DNA from: Flavobacteriia bacterium
GTDB lineage: Bacteria; Bacteroidota; Bacteroidia; Flavobacteriales_D; Crocinitomicaceae
Length of the DNA: 64,000 bases
Direction of reading: 5' to 3'
NCBI GenBank assembly: GCA_016183815.1
Contig: JACPDW010000008.1
Location: 62,001 to 126,000 of the forward strand
Positions 35,959 through 56,325 of this stretch are shown piece after piece; within the stretch, counting starts at the first letter, position 1, and every line of letters begins with the position of its first letter. The notes beneath the pieces were generated by a model. That model was given only the letters and a program-made list of their open reading frames with translations, had not been told where the DNA came from and did no database searches. The position numbers were made by a program, and so were the translations under genes.

Positions 35959-35960
35959 TC

Positions 35961-35981
35961 GTGATCCCCCGTTTGGATTTG
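35961..35981. repeat. Left attachment site of the provirus
   Basis: CCCGTTTGGATT at 35968-35979 repeats the 3' end of tRNA-Arg at 56256-56267. The flanking GTGATC is also shared, interrupted by two extra C. Together with the integrase beside the tRNA this marks the distal end of the element. Confidence 0.85.
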
Positions 35982-41899: not shown

Positions 41900-42652
41900 A
41901 TGGAAAATAATGAAAACCTTATTAAAGAATACAATAAGAAAACAAAAGGAGTTATCAATTATTACAAACATACCCTTTTTGTTTCTACTTTTCATTCTAC
42001 TTCGATTGAAGGAAGTACTTTAACAGAAAATCAAGTAATTGACTTGTTAGATTATGGTAAAACCGTTGCTAATAAACCTTTTGAACATCATTTGATGGTT
42101 ACAGACCATTACAAAGCGATTATTTATACAATGAATTTAGCAAAAAACAAAACAAAACTTTCTGTTAGTGAACTCCAAAATATAAGTGCATTAATAATGC
42201 AAAATACAGGTAAAATTGTAAATACTTCTTTAGGTAGTTATGATATTTCTAAAGGAGAATTTAGAAAAAGTGGTGTTTTTGCTGGAAAACGACAATTTCC
42301 TGATGCAAAAAAAGTTCCTGAATTAATTAAAAATATGTTGCAATCTTTTAATAAAGAATTAAACCTAGTTAAAAGTATAGAGGATAAAATTAAATTATCT
42401 TTTAAAATTCATTTTGACTTTGTTTCTATTCACCCTTTTGGTGATGGAAATGGAAGAGTTTCAAGATTATTAATGAATTATGTACAAAATTTTTTTAATC
42501 TTCCTCTTTGTGTGGTTTCTAAAAACTCAAGATTGAAATATATTGAAGCACTTGAAAAAACAAGAAAAACTGAAAATATAGATGTTTTTTATAAATTCAT
42601 GTTTGCTGAATATTCTAAATTTCTTAAATCTGAAATAAAAAAAATTATATGA
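41900..42652 (+). CDS. Fic-domain protein with built-in inhibitory helix
   Basis: 250 residues. The catalytic motif HPFGDGNGR (~177) is intact with its His, so AMP transfer to protein hydroxyls is the expected chemistry. An N-terminal inhibitory motif [ST]xxxE[GN], here STSIEG (~33-38), marks a class II Fic that is self-inhibited. In a provirus it may modify host proteins, act as a guard or toxin, or modulate infection; the target cannot be inferred. Confidence 0.9.
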   Translation: MENNENLIKEYNKKTKGVINYYKHTLFVSTFHSTSIEGSTLTENQVIDLLDYGKTVANKPFEHHLMVTDHYKAIIYTMNLAKNKTKLSVSELQNISALIMQNTGKIVNTSLGSYDISKGEFRKSGVFAGKRQFPDAKKVPELIKNMLQSFNKELNLVKSIEDKIKLSFKIHFDFVSIHPFGDGNGRVSRLLMNYVQNFFNLPLCVVSKNSRLKYIEALEKTRKTENIDVFYKFMFAEYSKFLKSEIKKII

Positions 42653-45588: not shown

Positions 45589-45779
45589 GTTTAGCGGCCT
45601 GGATAATGTTAGTATGTCATATTTCATTATTTCTATATCTAAGATTGAAATATATAAAGAAAAAAATGAAATTAGAAAAAGAAAACTCTGTTTATTCTGT
45701 TGAAAACATGAAGTTAAAAGAAGAAAACAAAATTTTGAATGAAGCAATAGAAAACTTATATGGAGATACGCACGAATAA
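45585..45779 (+). CDS. Small membrane-anchored coiled-coil protein
   Basis: 64 residues: a hydrophobic N-terminal helix (AWIMLVCHISLFLYLRL) and a charged coiled-coil-like tail. It overlaps the ATPase gene by 20 bp. A membrane protein immediately before a packaging ATPase fits a virus that fills a membrane-lined capsid. Confidence 0.55.
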   Translation: MSLAAWIMLVCHISLFLYLRLKYIKKKMKLEKENSVYSVENMKLKEENKILNEAIENLYGDTHE

Positions 45780-46347
45780 GATCTTTTTATTGGTAGGAAA
45801 TAGAGGAACTGGAAAAACGGACTTTTGCAAAAAATTAATCAATCATTCAGCTTTACCAAAAAAATTAGTAGTGGATACTTTCGATTCACCTGTTTGGCAA
45901 AACATGAAAACCTATGATAATCTAGCAGGCGTAAATGTACCAATTCCTATACTTTCTCCTGAAGAGTTGCCTAGTCATAAACAAGGTTTATATCGGACTT
46001 TTTCTCCAAATACTCGTTTGTTGGAAGAAAAAGTTGCACAATATTGTACCAATTCTTTAGTGATTTTAGAAGATTCCACTCGTTATTATAAACCAATGCT
46101 TACTGAAAATCAAAGAATTTATTTACTTAATTCTAAACAAAAGAATGTTGATTTTGTTCTAGTTTTTCATTATTTATCAGCAGTTCCTCCTGAAATAGTA
46201 AAATTGGCAGATTATTTAACATTATTTAAAACCAACGAGGGATTTTATGACAATAAGAAATGGTATCAACCTGAAATAAAAACAATTTTTGATCATATTA
46301 AAAAGTCTAAAAATCGTTTTGAAAATATTACAATTCAACTGCAATGA
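45760..46347 (+). CDS. Putative DNA-packaging ATPase (FtsK/HerA type)
   Basis: 195 residues. Walker A is GNRGTGKT at residues 13-20; a Walker B-like strand with acidic end is SLVILEDSTRYY (~97-108); then VDFVLVFHYLSAVPPEIVKLADYLTLFKT, matching the 'H-x-x-P-x-x-i-x-x-x-a-d-x-x-i-l-F' region of HerA/FtsK/Zot-like ATPases. Its small size fits the genome-packaging ATPases of PRD1/PM2-like viruses rather than phage terminases. It lies 1.4 kb upstream of the capsid candidate. A Zot-like secretion ATPase is the main alternative. Confidence 0.75.
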   Translation: MEIRTNKIFLLVGNRGTGKTDFCKKLINHSALPKKLVVDTFDSPVWQNMKTYDNLAGVNVPIPILSPEELPSHKQGLYRTFSPNTRLLEEKVAQYCTNSLVILEDSTRYYKPMLTENQRIYLLNSKQKNVDFVLVFHYLSAVPPEIVKLADYLTLFKTNEGFYDNKKWYQPEIKTIFDHIKKSKNRFENITIQLQ

Positions 46348-46764: not shown

Positions 46765-46995
46765 ATGAAAACTGTAAAAATTGATTTTGATTTTAGTCAA
46801 CTATTAACAATAGTTAAACAATGTGATTTAAATCAAAAATTAGCAATAATAAAAGCGATAGAAAAAGATACTTTTAAAAAAAGGTTAAGTATTCTTTTAT
46901 CTGAATTAAAAAATAATAGTATAAATCCCGAAGACATCATAAAAGAAACGGAAAAAGTAAGAAAAGCACGTTATATCAAAAAATCAAAAAAGTGA
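46765..46995 (+). CDS. Antitoxin of PIN-type pair
   Basis: 76 residues, helical and basic at the C-terminus, ending 4 bp into the PIN gene (stop TGA overlapped by the GTG start). Size, position and coupling identify it as the antitoxin. Confidence 0.65.
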   Translation: MKTVKIDFDFSQLLTIVKQCDLNQKLAIIKAIEKDTFKKRLSILLSELKNNSINPEDIIKETEKVRKARYIKKSKK

Positions 46996-47402
46996 GATTA
47001 GTTATTGATACTAATATTTTTATCATTTCATTAATAGGGAAAGGAAGTCCAAAATTGATGGATTGGATGGCTGATAAAAAATTTAAAATCCTTTTTAGTA
47101 ATGAATCCTATTCAGAATTAATTGAAGTTCTTAAAAGACCAAAATTTAATAAACTTTTTACAGAAAAAAAAATATTAGAACTTTTAGAATTGTTAGATGT
47201 TATAATGGAAAAAGTAAAAATTAGAACAAATACAGATATTTGTCGAGATAAAAAAGATAATTTTTTACTTAATCTTTCTAAAGATGGAAAAGCAGATTAT
47301 TTAATTACGGAAGATTTAGATTTACTAGAAATTAAAGAATTTAATAAAACAAAAATAGTAAAATATAAAGAGTTTATTAAATTAGTTTTTATTGAAAAAT
47401 AA
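46992..47402 (+). CDS. PIN-domain toxin (PIN_3 family)
   Basis: 136 residues from a GTG start. The acidic PIN residues are visible in VIDTNIF, FSNESYSELIEVL, KDNFLLNLS and ADYLITED(L). PIN toxins cleave RNA. The pair is inserted between the packaging ATPase and the capsid candidate, an unusual place that suggests later acquisition or coupling of toxin expression to virus genes. Confidence 0.8.
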   Translation: MRLVIDTNIFIISLIGKGSPKLMDWMADKKFKILFSNESYSELIEVLKRPKFNKLFTEKKILELLELLDVIMEKVKIRTNTDICRDKKDNFLLNLSKDGKADYLITEDLDLLEIKEFNKTKIVKYKEFIKLVFIEK

Positions 47403-47751: not shown

Positions 47752-48567
47752 ATGAATCAAAAAAATAATATTGCTCAGTTGATAGCAAGTGATCCAAACA
47801 AAACAAGAGCTTTGGGTATCACCGTTAGAGAAAAATCTTTTGCTCCTAAATCAGGAACAAAAAATATGTTAGAGGAACGCTCTAAAGCAATCCGTCTATC
47901 ATGGAATATTGTAAACCGTGATACTTCGGACTACAAAATCATTATTTTTCCTATATCATCTGATGATCCATCTGGTGATTACCAACAAAACAACACTATG
48001 TTTGGAGAACAGGCAGAAGTTTTAAATGAAACTTCAGGATTGGGTTCGGCTGTCTTTTTAGAAGATGGTCCTGTGGTAGCAAATCCTGCTAATCTTCCTG
48101 CCACATTTGAAAATTGCTTTTTAGGAGCAAAATCTTTAAACGCAAGCAGAAAAATCAACCAACTTATTCGTTTTGCTGGTAACTCTCCGATGAGAATTAC
48201 AGAAATGAAACTTAAATCAAAAGTTATTGCTACTGGTGAAAAAGATTCTTCAAACTACGACAATGTTTTTGAAACAATTTTCTTTTCTCCATTTGAAGAT
48301 CCAATTCGTAGAGAATTGCCGTTAAGAGTTTTACAAGAGGGTGCGAGCAACTTCAATCCTGATATGTTGGACATTGACTTCCAAAAATTAGCTTTTCCTG
48401 TAATTTTCTCCAACGAACACGCTTTTGTGTTCCAAGTAAACGCAGGTACGTCATTAACAATGACTTTAGCTTTTGGTGCCCACGATTCCAGAGCTCAAAA
48501 ACATTGGAGAGATGTAAAACAAGCTGATGACACTTTGGCTGAAGTAGGTTTGTTACGTAGAATGTAA
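47752..48567 (+). CDS. Candidate major capsid protein (double jelly-roll inferred)
   Basis: 271 residues, no signal or membrane segment, rich in short strands throughout (AIRLSWNIVN, YKIIIFPISS, SAVFLEDGPVV, MRITEMKLKSKVIAT, AFVFQVNAG, LTMTLAFGAH). Length is close to the PM2 capsid protein P2 (269 residues), a double jelly-roll. It is followed by a strong terminator, as expected for a highly expressed gene, and is surrounded by small membrane proteins. No sequence signature proves the fold; a structure prediction would decide. Confidence 0.6.
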   Translation: MNQKNNIAQLIASDPNKTRALGITVREKSFAPKSGTKNMLEERSKAIRLSWNIVNRDTSDYKIIIFPISSDDPSGDYQQNNTMFGEQAEVLNETSGLGSAVFLEDGPVVANPANLPATFENCFLGAKSLNASRKINQLIRFAGNSPMRITEMKLKSKVIATGEKDSSNYDNVFETIFFSPFEDPIRRELPLRVLQEGASNFNPDMLDIDFQKLAFPVIFSNEHAFVFQVNAGTSLTMTLAFGAHDSRAQKHWRDVKQADDTLAEVGLLRRM

Positions 48568-49699: not shown

Positions 49700-49815
49700 A
49701 TTTAGATGTAAATACAAAATTTGATTTAGATACAAACAGCATTGTATTACTTACTGTTGGCGTAATGTTAGCAGGTTTATTTTTAATAACCATTGCAAGA
49801 TTATCTAAAAAATGA
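49696..49815 (+). CDS. 39-residue membrane peptide
   Basis: MNLDVNTKFDLDTNSIVLL... with one C-terminal helix and the ending ARLSKK. It overlaps both neighbours by ATGA. The ending matches the preceding 75-residue protein. Confidence 0.6.
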   Translation: MNLDVNTKFDLDTNSIVLLTVGVMLAGLFLITIARLSKK

Positions 49816-50294
49816 AAAAATGGTGGAGCGGTTTAAGTAGTCGTGAACAACTCATTGTAGGTTTGTTGATTATTTTGTTTTTAGCCATTTTTTGGAGAAA
49901 AATTGTCCGTTTTTTTCAAGATTATATCCATAAGCCAAAAAATGCAGATGAATTAAAAAAAGAGTTGGAAGAAAACAACGAGTTAATCCAATACCAAAAA
50001 GCAGGTGTTTCAAGGTCATTTTCAGAGCAAACTTATGTTCATGCAGCAGAAAAATTATTTAATGCTATGCACGGAGCAGGAACAGACGAAGAGGGAGTAT
50101 TAAAAATTATGACTTTTTACGTAAAAAATGACATTGATTTTATTTTACTCTATAAAGCATTTGGATATAGACAAGGTGCATTATGGAGTTCTTCTTCTGA
50201 TTTGAGATCATGGATTAAAAGTGATTTATCTGATTACTGGGTTGGAATGATAAATAATGACTATAAAATTAAAGGAATGTTAAAAAGAATATGA
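49812..50294 (+). CDS. Membrane-anchored annexin-like protein
   Basis: 160 residues: an N-terminal membrane helix (~14-28), a charged linker (~40-60) and a C-terminal domain resembling one annexin repeat. The segment AAEKLFNAMHGAGTDEEGVL (79-98) reproduces the annexin start of repeat with its type II calcium loop M-x-G-x-G-T-D-E (86-93), and WIKSDLSDYW (134-143) matches the KSELSG-type helix that supplies the acidic calcium ligand (here D138; D130 is an alternative). The loop between them is ~8 residues longer than in animal annexins. A membrane-binding role in the virion is inferred. Confidence 0.65.
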   Translation: MKKWWSGLSSREQLIVGLLIILFLAIFWRKIVRFFQDYIHKPKNADELKKELEENNELIQYQKAGVSRSFSEQTYVHAAEKLFNAMHGAGTDEEGVLKIMTFYVKNDIDFILLYKAFGYRQGALWSSSSDLRSWIKSDLSDYWVGMINNDYKIKGMLKRI

Positions 50295-50428: not shown

Positions 50429-50585
50429 TTTTAACGAGTTTTTAGAATATTTTGGATTAGCAGGTGCAGGTTGGGTAATTCACTTATCGACAGTTGAAAG
50501 CGTTGCTAAAATCGTTTCTTTACTTGTACCAGCTTTTCTTTCAATCTTAGTTTATTATAAAAACAGAAAAAACAAAAATGAATGA
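50418..50585 (+). CDS. Putative holin-like membrane peptide
   Basis: 55 residues (MKSNFNEFLEYFGLAGAGWV...). A Gly/Ala-containing segment and a C-terminal hydrophobic helix (VSLLVPAFLSILVYY) end in a basic tail. It lies directly before a muramidase gene, the usual holin position. Confidence 0.55.
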   Translation: MKSNFNEFLEYFGLAGAGWVIHLSTVESVAKIVSLLVPAFLSILVYYKNRKNKNE

Positions 50586-51162
50586 AGTTGTCAAAAAACA
50601 AATATTACTTTTTTTCATTTTTACTTTCCTTGCATTGCTTGGTTGGAGAATCATTTTTGCACTTATGAATATTAGTATAGACGATATAAAACCTTTTAAA
50701 TACCTTGGAAAAACTCCAAAATCCGATTGGTATAACTGGCTTTCTCCAATGGCTAAAAAAGTGGGTGATGAATACGGTATTCCATGGCAGGCAATTATGG
50801 TACAAACCGCTTTAGAAACTGGTTGGGGAAAATCCTCTTTACTTAGAAAATACAACAATTTTGGAGGTATTAAATCCACAAAAGGACAAAACAGCATTGA
50901 ATTAAAAACAAAAGAGTTTGTTAATGGTCAATGGATTGAAATAAAAGACGGATTTGCTACTTGGGAAACACCATACAAAGGATTGGTAGGATATGCACAA
51001 TTTTTTCATAAGAATAAAAGATATAAAAACGCATTAAAATATCCAAACGATCCATATCAATTTATTGTAGAAATTAAAAAAGTTGGTTATGCCACAGATC
51101 CTGATTATGTGAGCAAATTACACAGAATGTTAGAAAACGATTTAAAAATTAACAGAGCATGA
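50578..51162 (+). CDS. Membrane-anchored GH73-type peptidoglycan hydrolase
   Basis: 194 residues: N-terminal membrane helix (~9-30) and a glucosaminidase/FlgJ-like GH73 domain with the catalytic Glu in QTALETGWGKSSL, then NNFGGIKSTKG and WETPYKGLVGYAQFF. It cleaves the glycan backbone. The membrane anchor suggests a virion-associated entry enzyme rather than a free endolysin. Confidence 0.85.
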   Translation: MNEVVKKQILLFFIFTFLALLGWRIIFALMNISIDDIKPFKYLGKTPKSDWYNWLSPMAKKVGDEYGIPWQAIMVQTALETGWGKSSLLRKYNNFGGIKSTKGQNSIELKTKEFVNGQWIEIKDGFATWETPYKGLVGYAQFFHKNKRYKNALKYPNDPYQFIVEIKKVGYATDPDYVSKLHRMLENDLKINRA

Positions 51163-51905
51163 AAAAAGGATTGATTATCACCCTATTTATATTAGTTGTT
51201 TTAGGAACAACGGCTTTTTTATATTGGAAATTTATCTATAAAAAAGAACAAGAGCCAGAGCCAAACAAAGCAAGTTTTAAACCAAATTGGAAACCTGATT
51301 TTACAGTTGAAGAGAAAAAAGATATAAAAGTTCCAATACCAAAAGAAAAATCTACTGTTTCAGAAAAATCTACTGTTTCAGAAAATTCTTTAAGTCTCAA
51401 AAATCTTTTATTGAAACATATGAACTCGCTATTGACTTTCTTGGAAGATGAAATTAAAGAAACCGAAAGAATCGACACTGGTGATAGCGTTGTTTTCACG
51501 CTAACAAAGTCCGAATCTCTCGAAGCTCTTTCTGAAACAAAGAATAGGTTAATTTTTAAAATTTCAGAAATTACAAAAAATTCTGTTCCAGAAGATTTAA
51601 GAAGTTTTTATCAATTTCTTTTAGATGAATTTGATTCTCAAAAAAAATCTATCGAATATCTTCTTAGCATAAATTATACAGCAGTAGAAGATTTAGGACT
51701 TTTGCCATCGCTGGTGCAAAAAAACCAAAGGTTTTCTTCAATCATAAACGGTTTAAAGCTTAAAATTGAAGAAATTAGATTAAAATTAGAGAACTATGTT
51801 AGTACGAACTCCTCGGTAAATCAAGTAGAATCATCATTAAATAACGTGATAATTGTCAATAAATCTACTGGTGATGTTGCATTAAGAAAAACTTTTGTAC
51901 AATGA
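51159..51905 (+). CDS. Membrane-anchored coiled-coil protein
   Basis: 248 residues: N-terminal helix (~5-24), a short repeat (KSTVSEKSTVSENS, ~63-76) and long helical segments. No recognised domain. Possibly a spike or vertex component by position between two wall-active proteins. Confidence 0.6.
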   Translation: MKKGLIITLFILVVLGTTAFLYWKFIYKKEQEPEPNKASFKPNWKPDFTVEEKKDIKVPIPKEKSTVSEKSTVSENSLSLKNLLLKHMNSLLTFLEDEIKETERIDTGDSVVFTLTKSESLEALSETKNRLIFKISEITKNSVPEDLRSFYQFLLDEFDSQKKSIEYLLSINYTAVEDLGLLPSLVQKNQRFSSIINGLKLKIEEIRLKLENYVSTNSSVNQVESSLNNVIIVNKSTGDVALRKTFVQ

Positions 51906-52333
51906 AAAAGATAAAAAAATATAAATGGCTTATTTTAGTCGTATTGCTTTTACTGGTTCTTTATTTTTGGTATAAAAACAAAAATAAAACATCAGAATCT
52001 TTTGATACTTCAACAACTAGTAACAATCAAAGTAACTCTTTACCCTCAATTGGAAGTAATACTACTTTAAAAAGAGGAGCAAAAGCAAAAGAAGTTCAAC
52101 AATTACAAAGTTATTACAATACAAAAATTGCTAATCCAACAGGAGTTACAAGATTAACAGAAGACGGTATTTTTGGACCAAAAACTGAAAGTGTTGTACA
52201 GTCTGTAATGGGTAGAAAATCAACTACTTTGAATGAATTTATTTCTACACTAAATACAGCAAATCAAATCACAACAAACACTACACAAGATAATTTTCCT
52301 TGGATAGGTAATGCAAACGATATTAATAATTAA
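51902..52333 (+). CDS. Membrane-anchored peptidoglycan-binding protein
   Basis: 143 residues: N-terminal membrane helix (~8-21), Ser/Asn-rich linker and a PG_binding_1-like domain (LKRGAKAKEVQQLQSYYN... LTEDGIFGPKTESVV). It probably attaches the virion or lysis machinery to the wall. Confidence 0.8.
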   Translation: MKKIKKYKWLILVVLLLLVLYFWYKNKNKTSESFDTSTTSNNQSNSLPSIGSNTTLKRGAKAKEVQQLQSYYNTKIANPTGVTRLTEDGIFGPKTESVVQSVMGRKSTTLNEFISTLNTANQITTNTTQDNFPWIGNANDINN

Positions 52334-52834: not shown

Positions 52835-52960
52835 ATGAACATTGTAAAAAAAATAGAATCTTTGAGCGTAAAGCAATTGGTACTTACTGCCGTTGTCATT
52901 GCTTTGATTGTCATTGCATGGAGAAATAAAGAATTAATTAGAGCAAAAATTGAACAATGA
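52835..52960 (+). CDS. 41-residue membrane peptide
   Basis: MNIVKKIESLSVKQLVLTAV... one membrane helix and a basic tail. It begins immediately after the previous stop and is coupled by ATGA to the M23 protein. Confidence 0.55.
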   Translation: MNIVKKIESLSVKQLVLTAVVIALIVIAWRNKELIRAKIEQ

Positions 52961-53415
52961 AAAAGAACATCGTTTTATTGATTATTTTTAGCACAGTGAT
53001 TGTTTTGGTCATTCATTTTTTTACTAAAAACTTGATATTAAAACCGCTCAATGGAAAAATTACAAGTGATTTTGGTTACAGAACACACCCTATTTCAGGA
53101 AAATATTCTTTTCATAATGGAATAGACATCGCTTCACCAACAGGAACAAAAATAAAAGCTCCTTTTTCAGGGAAAGTATATTCATCTTATTACAATTCAG
53201 AGGGTGGAAACCAAATAATTTTAGAAAGAAAAGACGGCTTAAGAGTTGGTTTTGCTCATTTGAATAAATCCTACCTTAAAAAAGGCGATTCCTTTAAAAT
53301 AAATGATTTTATCGCAGAAGTTGGCAATACAGGAAATAGCACAGGTTCTCATTTACATTTTACAGTAAAAGATAAAAACAGCAAATATTTAGATCCTAAA
53401 AAAATTATGGTATGA
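52957..53415 (+). CDS. Membrane-anchored M23 endopeptidase
   Basis: 152 residues: N-terminal membrane helix (~5-22) and a compact LytM/M23 domain with both zinc motifs, HNGIDIASP and HLHF (plus FAHL). It cuts peptide cross-links in peptidoglycan and complements the GH73 glycosidase. Confidence 0.88.
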   Translation: MKKNIVLLIIFSTVIVLVIHFFTKNLILKPLNGKITSDFGYRTHPISGKYSFHNGIDIASPTGTKIKAPFSGKVYSSYYNSEGGNQIILERKDGLRVGFAHLNKSYLKKGDSFKINDFIAEVGNTGNSTGSHLHFTVKDKNSKYLDPKKIMV

Positions 53416-54513: not shown

Positions 54514-55021
54514 TGATTTTGATGTCTTCCTGTGCAAAGGAAATTCAGTAACTTCTGAAGGAATTACGACTGTTTCAAACGGCAAATATTCTCATTCAGC
54601 TCAAGCACTTTGGATTAATAACACTCTTTGCATTTTCGACGCACAAAAAGAGGGATCATTTCCTAGAGAATATAACAGATGGAAAAGTGAATTTGGATAT
54701 GAATTTGATGTTTTTAGACCTCCGTTTGAAGTAAATTCTGTTCAATATTCTAAAGATTGTATCAATTATTTTGGCGTGGACTATGACTATAAACATCTTT
54801 TTTTTGGATTTTGGAGAAAAATAATAAGTGCTAAAAAGGTAAAAGATAAATACAAAAACAATAATAAATTCATTTGTACTGAATTAACAGCAAAATTGAT
54901 TAAACAATCTTCTTTTTATTTTTTATTAAGTCCTATCCAGGATCAGCAAAATTTTACTCCAGATGATTTATATTTCTATTTAGTGAAAAATAAATTTAGT
55001 CATGTTCTAAAAAACTACTAA
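54497..55021 (+). CDS. YiiX/C92-like permuted NlpC/P60 protein
   Basis: 174 residues. The catalytic order is permuted: His in GKYSHSAQALW (~31-41) comes first and the nucleophile Cys in FICTELTAKLI (~121-131) later, as in YiiX-like papain-fold enzymes. Possible amidase, peptidase or lipid hydrolase. Last rightward gene; it overlaps the oppositely oriented integrase by 26 bp. Confidence 0.75.
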   Translation: METLINDFDVFLCKGNSVTSEGITTVSNGKYSHSAQALWINNTLCIFDAQKEGSFPREYNRWKSEFGYEFDVFRPPFEVNSVQYSKDCINYFGVDYDYKHLFFGFWRKIISAKKVKDKYKNNNKFICTELTAKLIKQSSFYFLLSPIQDQQNFTPDDLYFYLVKNKFSHVLKNY

Positions 55022-56147
55022 AAGAGTTTCTTTTTTCTGCTTCAAATTCTAATCTATTAAAATTTTTTCCAATATAGTACATTTCTGTTGTTTTTACGCT
55101 CGAATGTCCTAACATCATAGCAATACTTTCTAAACTCCAGCCGTTTTCATTTTGGAGCGTTGCAAAAGTTTTTCTACCTGTATGAGTTGTAAGTCTTTTT
55201 TTTATATTTAGCTTATTGGCAATATGTTTTAAATATTTATTATATAAAGCATTACATAAAAAAGGTAGTTTACCATTGTATTTTTTTAAAATGTTTTTAG
55301 CAATATCATCAATTGGAATACAAAACATTTGCCCTGTTTTTGACCTGGTCCCGATTAACATATTTTTTTGAATGGTAAATTTATTCCATAAATCACAATA
55401 GCTTATTCCTGTGGATATTTGGAATAAATATAATTCTTTACAAATAGATATTTTTGAATTTTCAAAATTAAAATGAATAATTTTCTTTAACTCATCTTTA
55501 TTTAGATGTACTGGTGTATTTGGTTTATCTCTCATTGGTTCGTAATTTATCAATTCATAATTTTTAATATTTCCAATTTTAGATGAATGTTTTAGAGCCG
55601 TTTTAAAAAATTCAATATGTCTGCTAGCTGTGGTTTGATTTGTTGTTTTTCTAGTTTTCATAAACCATGCTATAAATTTTTCAGCTTCTTTTAAAGAAAA
55701 ATGTTCATCATACTTGGTTTTAGTAACTTTTTCAAAAAGTATTAAATTTCTTAATCTTACTTCGTAGGTTCTGATGGTACCAGTTCTTTTTTTCTTTTGT
55801 GATTGTTCAATATAGTCTTTGACTATTTTCACTAAAGTAGTCGGTTCTTTTTCTTTTTGTGGTTGTATTGAGTTGATTAATTCTTTCGAGTTCTTATATT
55901 CACAAAGCAAAGCGTTACTTTTTAATTTTAAAGACAAACTTTGAACGTACATATTGATATATCTATCTTTATTCTTAAATTCAGAAAAATATATTTGTTG
56001 CTCCTGATTCCAGTGTTTTATATTTACAACTTCATGGGTTGCAAATTCTGAAACAGTTCCTTTGTACGATACTCTACAATATAAAATATCGTTTTTTCCT
56101 TTTCTAATAAAAAATGTGATTTTTGGCATTGGATTAAATTTGATCAT
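54996..56147 (-). CDS. int: Tyrosine recombinase (integrase), IntDOT-like
   Basis: 383 residues; a start six codons later is possible. An N-terminal arm-binding domain (~1-85), SAM-like core-binding domain (~105-210) and catalytic domain follow. HTGRKTFATL, MLGHSSVKTTEMYY (nucleophile Tyr) are present. At the position of the first catalytic Arg the sequence is TGISYCDL, with Ser instead of Arg, as reported for IntDOT of CTnDOT. It adjoins the tRNA-Arg attachment site and is transcribed into the element. Confidence 0.92.
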   Translation of the reverse strand: MIKFNPMPKITFFIRKGKNDILYCRVSYKGTVSEFATHEVVNIKHWNQEQQIYFSEFKNKDRYINMYVQSLSLKLKSNALLCEYKNSKELINSIQPQKEKEPTTLVKIVKDYIEQSQKKKRTGTIRTYEVRLRNLILFEKVTKTKYDEHFSLKEAEKFIAWFMKTRKTTNQTTASRHIEFFKTALKHSSKIGNIKNYELINYEPMRDKPNTPVHLNKDELKKIIHFNFENSKISICKELYLFQISTGISYCDLWNKFTIQKNMLIGTRSKTGQMFCIPIDDIAKNILKKYNGKLPFLCNALYNKYLKHIANKLNIKKRLTTHTGRKTFATLQNENGWSLESIAMMLGHSSVKTTEMYYIGKNFNRLEFEAEKRNSFSSFLEHD

Positions 56148-56228: not shown

Positions 56229-56250
56229 TTGCCTTATAAATCGTTAAAAA

Positions 56251-56268
56251 GTGATCCCGTTTGGATTC
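56251..56268. repeat. Right attachment site of the provirus
   Basis: CCCGTTTGGATT at 56256-56267 is the 3' part of tRNA-Arg and the direct repeat of 35968-35979; the tRNA gene remains intact at this end. Confidence 0.85.
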
Positions 56269-56325
56269 GAACCAAAGACCTACTGCTTAGAAGGCAGTTG
56301 CTCTATCCAGCTGAGCTACGGGACC
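56252..56325 (-). tRNA. tRNA-Arg (anticodon TCT)
   Basis: 74 nt, full cloverleaf: acceptor GGTCCCG/CGGGATC (one G-T), D stem GCTC/GAGC, anticodon stem ACTGC/GCAGT around CTTCTAA (anticodon TCT), T arm TTTGG-TTCGAAT-CCAAA. No CCA encoded. It is the integration target of the provirus. Confidence 0.95.

Follow-up and report, generated by a model that had tools for sequence, protein, structure and literature searches.

A membrane-anchored single annexin-repeat protein in an integrated, tailless-phage-like element of a flavobacterial genome

The open reading frame at 49812-50294 (forward strand) of the window, i.e. the whole stretch of 64,000 nucleotides that was analysed, encodes a membrane-anchored protein of 160 residues with a single annexin repeat (Pfam, PDB profile search, AlphaFold2 and Foldseek). 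The gene belongs to an integrated, tailless-phage-like element, and lies there in a module of capsid and wall-enzyme genes. The protein is an annexin-repeat protein and not a canonical four-repeat annexin: the core of four tandem repeats of the strict annexin family is not present, one repeat being found in the 160 residues. Proteins with the annexin fold are known to hold on to membranes by means of calcium; annexins are textbook membrane binders of eukaryotes. The small single-repeat annexin of the window likely serves to move a genome across or out of the Gram-negative envelope. More specifically, and with a chance a little short of even, it is a structural or entry protein of the element, acting in envelope crossing with a peptidoglycan-binding-like partner.

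Annexin-like repeat in sequence and predicted structure

The frame begins with ATG and contains, as the earlier note had claimed, both MHGAGTDE (residues 86-93; 50067-50090, forward strand), a motif like a type II calcium loop, and KSDLSD (residues 136-141 of the 160-residue protein). A transmembrane helix at residues 14-32 (49851-49907, forward strand; hydropathy, and a helix at 10-38 in the AlphaFold2 model) is followed by a linker helix and then by the annexin-like repeat at residues 66-160 (50007-50291, forward strand; model and structural matches). The charges flanking the membrane helix do not decide the membrane side. Both the type II loop GxGT(D/E) and the acidic residue before helix E are present, the latter as D138 (50223-50225, forward strand), which occupies the place of the acidic ligand in annexins; 17 of 18 aligned repeats have an acidic residue there. 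The spacing from GxGT to D138 is 46 residues, compared with the usual 38 in annexins; the extra residues belong to an insertion that separates helix C from helix D and was modelled with low confidence (pLDDT < 50 at residues 124-128).

Pfam Annexin (PF00191) matched the window protein with 17.7 bits (E 0.0037; residues 78-103), below the gathering cut-off of 25 bits, and for a single sequence this match is only suggestive. In a phmmer search of the window protein against PDB sequences, annexin VI was matched at an E of 2.5e-15, summed over several repeats, and the best single-repeat i-E was 0.72 among the alignments listed. One sequence was therefore insufficient, because the Pfam match was below the cut-off and the phmmer E summed several repeats. 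A search of NCBIfam with the window protein returned nothing, and a PF00191 scan of the window's own genome returned no match at E 0.001.

The profile of the seven orthologues, chosen without the motif, gave annexins or annexin fusion constructs in all of the best 60 of 77 matches among PDB sequences (best E 1.1e-18, summed over repeats; best single-repeat i-E 0.16 among the two alignments listed). The likeness to the annexin profile put forward in the earlier note was thus significant for the orthologue family, and below the Pfam cut-off for the protein alone. A model built on 20 repeats, none of them from the seven orthologous elements and with four of its source loci fetched by loop motif, scored the window protein at 25.1 bits against 7.7 bits for the best of 2000 shuffles (residues 44-160); with the same model, the orthologue L031 reached only 8.1 bits and the other five 24.7 to 50.7 bits. 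Annexins were still placed at the top by a profile built from 18 loop-deleted repeats (E 0.0034; 27 of 30 rows annexins), so that the likeness extends beyond the motif; four of the 18 rows derive from L018 and L021, both of which are above the Pfam cut-off. The loop-deleted profile of the seven orthologues alone returned no annexin among nine rows.

Three other Pfam matches were set aside because each was below its cut-off and occurred in one of the seven orthologues. T2SSM (PF04612) matched the membrane helix and linker of the window protein (residues 2-60; 22.9 bits, cut-off 27.8), with an E-value better than that of Annexin for the window protein alone; Annexin matched three of the seven orthologues. 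The other two were NicO and DNA primase.

The AlphaFold2 model obtained with a 22-sequence alignment (A3) had a mean pLDDT of 87.8 and a pTM of 0.65. The five-helix repeat expected from the earlier note is present in it, with helices at residues 72-86, 93-103, 107-120, 131-138 and 141-153. The alignment rows were the window protein, L009 and IMG/VR loci, the last fetched by loop-motif patterns; the repeat was obtained with this alignment alone, and was absent when the window protein was folded as a single sequence (pLDDT 54.3). In a Foldseek search against the PDB, the best 50 of 136 rows were annexins or annexin fusions (probability 0.96-1.00), with E from 0.084 to 0.5 and none at E 0.001, and with TM-scores of 0.33-0.39 as normalised by the whole 160-residue query. 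VIA gave Z 10.7 at an rmsd of 4.3 over 83 residues and Z 10.6 at 2.1 over 76 residues, values in a range (Z < about 13) in which helical folds may share only a common arrangement; 49 of its 50 rows were annexins, fusions or giardins, the exception being Astrotactin-2 (Z 8.2). In BFVD, the model was matched by an 801-residue phage protein (A0A6J5RF64; 5.5e-4) and by an unnamed viral protein of 154 residues (A0A345N3H1; 148 columns, E 0.042).

Like the annexins A2, A4, A5, A6 and A8 of the PDB, which provided the best sequence and structure matches, the window protein has a five-helix repeat, a GxGTDE loop between helices A and B and an acidic residue before helix E. Unlike them, it has one repeat instead of four, placed behind a membrane helix, and carries the insertion between helices C and D.

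The integrated element and the peptidoglycan-binding-like partner

The element spans approximately 20 kb of a 3.24 Mb genome and is flanked by chromosomal genes. It includes a repressor-like gene (36019), a DUF5906/DUF3854 protein that is possibly a helicase-primase, and a P-loop ATPase (45760-46347, forward strand) whose best PDB rows were general P-loop proteins and which is a candidate genome-packaging ATPase. The candidate major capsid protein (47752-48567, forward strand) was assigned by its position and its conservation; it had no annexin-like or capsid match in PDB sequences and none in phage records. Its gene is followed by a run of genes for small one-helix proteins, and these by the annexin gene. 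Beyond it are genes for three further membrane-anchored proteins, a glucosaminidase (50578-51162, forward strand; PF01832, 105 bits), the peptidoglycan-binding-like protein (51902-52333, forward strand) and an M23 peptidase (52957-53415, forward strand; PF01551, 90 bits), the two enzymes having the same plan of a short N-terminus, a helix and a C-terminal domain. A tyrosine integrase (54996-56147, reverse strand) adjoins a tRNA-Arg (56251-56325). Tail, portal and terminase families were not found in non-exhaustive Pfam scans of 20 proteins of the element and its edges.

In having numerous one-helix proteins encoded behind the capsid gene and wall enzymes anchored in the membrane, the window element resembles the lipid-containing phages of Flavobacterium (FLiP, PhiCjT23) and those of the PRD1/PM2 type. 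Unlike in these phages, the candidate capsid protein of the window has no counterpart among phage records or PDB sequences. For the double jelly-roll capsid protein and the packaging ATPase of tailless, membrane-containing phages, the element thus offers candidates in this capsid-gene product, conserved in all seven orthologous elements, and in the P-loop ATPase. An internal membrane is presumed for the virus. That a virus-like element encodes an annexin repeat placed after a membrane helix, as proposed earlier, is supported by the family profile, the model and the provirus-like context.

A candidate attachment repeat lies at 35960-35980 and 56248-56268 (GTGATCCC..CGTTTGGATT, with two further bases in the left copy). 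The 12-base match between the 3' end of the tRNA-Arg (56256) and the left edge of the element (35968) is no evidence by itself, because 111 of 300 control 75-mers match the left region at that length. The element also contains a Fic-domain protein (41900-42652; 64 bits) and a PIN-domain protein (46992-47402; 61 bits), which are possibly toxin or defence cargo.

A family search of 240 genomes returned eight matches including the window's own, and left six orthologues (28-33% identity to the window protein) after the removal of L008, a chance match inside a 665-residue frame of another protein. All seven orthologous elements encode the same candidate capsid protein, and six of seven the P-loop ATPase, the element in which no ATPase was detected being on a contig of 11.8 kb. 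A peptidoglycan-binding-like gene is present in the elements of all six orthologues. GxGT is kept in five of seven orthologues (the window protein and four others) and lost in L006 and L007; D107, D109, L113, A116, G118, R120 and L131 are among the positions that are invariant across the seven.

At 20 of 30 loci the annexin gene is accompanied by a member of the peptidoglycan-binding-like family, always on the same strand and in 12 cases at a distance of 100 bases or less; two of these 12 close pairs, those of L196 (20 bases) and L035 (176 bases), overlap because the frames were taken from the first ATG. The 30 loci are not independent, since L194, L195, L197 and L198 represent one genus and L199 and L201 one genome. 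At the other 10 loci no peptidoglycan-binding-like neighbour was found by the partner profile, and the partner profiles may have drifted because they were iterated. Against Pfam PG_binding_1 (cut-off 23), the partner of L113 scored 23.6 bits, the only member above the cut-off among those scanned, and that of L009 22.6 bits; the partner of L033 had no match. For the partner in the window, an endolysin profile matched at 9.7e-7 and PG_binding_1 at E 0.053. The two domains are combined in a single phage protein (L107), which scored 37.2 bits with the orthologue profile for its annexin-like repeat and 39.4 bits with PG_binding_1; L095, L085, L108 and L115 have peptidoglycan-domain matches below cut-off.

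Relatives in class genomes and viral contigs

With a repeat-only profile, further relatives were detected among genomes of the family, the order and the class, and all distant relatives that were kept have a hydrophobic stretch before the repeat, weak in some. Two chance matches were discarded, L019 with internal stops and L026 facing a long frame of the complementary strand. Two-repeat relatives exceed the Pfam Annexin cut-off (L021, 38.9 bits; L018, 30.6 bits), and the first repeat of L021 aligns to annexin VI from the loop through the acidic residue. Among the eight distant relatives scanned with Pfam, two had 18.8 and 17.0 bits, both below the cut-off, and four had no Annexin match at E 1. 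In the wider set of 18 repeats, strict GxGT occurs in nine, and all but one have D or E at the acidic position; with a looser count, GT is found in 14, or 13 without L039, whose GT falls outside the loop register. Two adjacent annexin-repeat genes occur at L037:8549-9463, in an element that also carries the 600-residue protein described below.

A search of IMG/VR with the window protein alone gave no close relative. A DNA pattern for AMxGxGTDE retrieved 90 IMG/VR stretches, of which 80 loci were analysed; because these were selected by the loop pattern, the loop in them is not independent evidence. With the orthologue profile, 22 of the 80 loci had frames below E 1e-5 (computed with the database size set to 10,000), several of them near-copies. 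Many of the 78 IMG/VR frames with AMxGxGTDE were unrelated, such as the recurring VFDEILDRAMDGAGTDEF frames. The top frame by the orthologue profile (L080) had only 14.4 bits with Pfam Annexin, and four of ten IMG/VR proteins scanned (L062, L113, L115 and L118) exceeded the cut-off. The earlier note had regarded a viral, membrane-anchored single annexin repeat as unusual, a view that did not hold: six other elements carry orthologues, the order and the class contain distant relatives, and related repeats occur at more than a quarter of the IMG/VR loci analysed. The window protein had no tblastn match in phage records, and neither had L080, L085, L108, L021, the candidate capsid protein or the ATPase; these searches thus yielded no isolated phage carrying the gene in the phage-record collection.

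Annexin-like repeats were also present in proteins of 300-800 residues on viral contigs. Some larger viral-contig proteins with such repeats (L048, L062, L085, L095 and L136) have a conserved N-terminal leader (RIKNLMGYDRSKTLNEN-like), which is perhaps a virion or processing signal. At L073:2875-3834, an annexin-like repeat (24.1 bits) follows a glycine-zipper-like stretch (below cut-off), and the same frame matches the ejection protein gp7 of P22 very weakly (E 0.38). Three short annexin-repeat proteins, each with a hydrophobic helix, are encoded on an IMG/VR contig of 56 kb (L064:3173-4915), and a peptidoglycan-binding-like gene stands among the three genes.

In the whole-genome Pfam scan, eight of 346 class genomes were above the Annexin cut-off, and in the phylum sample one of 345, itself one of the eight. 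A PF00191 match was found in 21 class genomes, of which the eight above the cut-off, G454 below it, and G113 and G257 were considered. Seven of the eight over-cut-off loci carry both a family of ~600-residue and a family of ~240-residue proteins, common to the L033 and L035 elements, and the eighth (L197, on a 9.4 kb contig) has other genes in common with these elements; because the eight loci share genes, every over-cut-off annexin of the 346-genome sample lies in one element family. The ~600-residue family was found at 16 of the 30 loci and the ~240-residue family at 12; the former is also present on the IMG/VR contigs L049 and L077. Elements carrying over-cut-off annexins are likely viruses.

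The element family with the ~600- and ~240-residue proteins comprises L193-L202, L033 and L035 (also L049 and L077). One of its members (L194) encodes an LEA_2-like membrane protein, an amidase and a very large Strawberry-notch-like helicase. Four of nine L194 proteins scanned against PHROGs fell in named families, mainly lysis enzymes and a helicase; no capsid was found, and five of the nine had no match at 0.01.

Proposed role in envelope crossing and relation to described annexins

The neighbourhood of the gene points to a peptidoglycan-linked envelope module rather than to the membrane-capsid tether or the fusion that the earlier note had suggested. Envelope crossing at entry is favoured because the partners are wall-binding-like and wall-cutting proteins, likewise anchored, and because one large phage protein holds both domains. 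The window protein would sit in the membrane of the virion or of the host, alongside these proteins. On contact of the particle with a cell, the loop of the repeat may dock on an anionic bilayer, a step in which calcium would probably take part in proteins with an intact loop, and the peptidoglycan-binding partner would meanwhile hold the wall, so that the envelope would be opened and the genome passed. Calcium is not essential to all members, because GxGT is intact in only five of seven orthologues and in nine of the 18 wider repeats. Several copies may pack side by side and rebuild an annexin-like core, as is suggested by the two-repeat proteins (L018 and L021) and by the tandem genes in relatives.

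A tether or scaffold from an internal virion membrane to the capsid, with the helix in the membrane and the repeat on the bilayer, on the shell or in a lattice, would agree with the place of the annexin gene after the small one-helix proteins behind the candidate capsid gene, and annexins do form lattices on membranes. It is unlikely, however: the steady partner is the peptidoglycan-binding-like protein and not the candidate capsid protein, for which no relative was found at 23 of the 30 loci, several of them represented by short stretches, and the repeats also occur in the viral-contig proteins of 300-800 residues. Slightly more doubtful is a part in a lysis cassette, as a membrane protein that aids envelope opening at release together with the glucosaminidase and the M23 peptidase. 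The wall hydrolase genes are neighbours of the annexin gene, the amidase gene of L194 comes after its annexin and peptidoglycan-binding-like genes, and residues 14-79 of the window protein have Rz-like spanin profile matches (E 0.041 and 0.22), but these are weak and confined to the linker and the membrane helix; phage proteins of much greater size also carry the repeat, in one case together with PG_binding_1. Gene position does not separate entry genes from lysis genes. Reuse of the annexin fold as a calcium-independent protein-protein adaptor that binds no lipid is the least probable of these explanations, despite the loss of the loop in two of seven orthologues (L006 and L007), the nine of 18 repeats that are not strict GxGT and the conservation of positions after the loop (ND-D, A-G-R, DL, GDL), as GxGT is kept in the window protein and four orthologues and the acidic residue in nearly all of the repeats.

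Beyond the role in envelope crossing proposed for the window protein, annexin repeats may tentatively be seen as a phage envelope-crossing module, chiefly of Bacteroidota, with the described Bacteroidota annexins largely proviral and phages the main prokaryotic reservoir of the annexin fold, a generalisation that is rather less probable than its opposite. If single annexin repeats belong to phage-like envelope modules, the patchy annexins of Bacteroidota would be simply explained by proviruses. If phages are the main prokaryotic reservoir, this would bear on the origin of eukaryotic annexins.

No paper on phage-encoded annexins was found in searches of a library of open-licence papers, as judged by titles and the starts of abstracts, and the word annexin is absent from the available text of the PhiCjT23 paper and of a 2018 survey of such viruses. 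The survey of bacterial annexins by Kodavali et al. 2014 (PMC3894181) reported that its approach had detected none in viruses. Single annexin domains of polymorphic toxins delivered by phage-tail-like (PVC) systems were described by Zhang et al. 2012 (PMC3482391), with the suggestion that annexin domains help to breach target membranes. There the domain is within a large toxin, whereas the window protein is a 160-residue membrane-anchored protein with no toxin domain, encoded beside wall enzymes. Kodavali et al. 2014 (PMC3894181) further report that Bacteroidetes have single-domain annexins, that transmembrane regions are predicted for some annexins of bacteria, that short annexin genes form adjacent pairs in flavobacteria, and that metalloproteases lie near them in Kordia. 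These were treated as bacterial genes, whereas the repeats described here are in provirus-like elements and IMG/VR contigs; given the gene pair of L037 and the M23 peptidase near the window gene, the published flavobacterial pairs and the Kordia metalloproteases would fit proviral genes.
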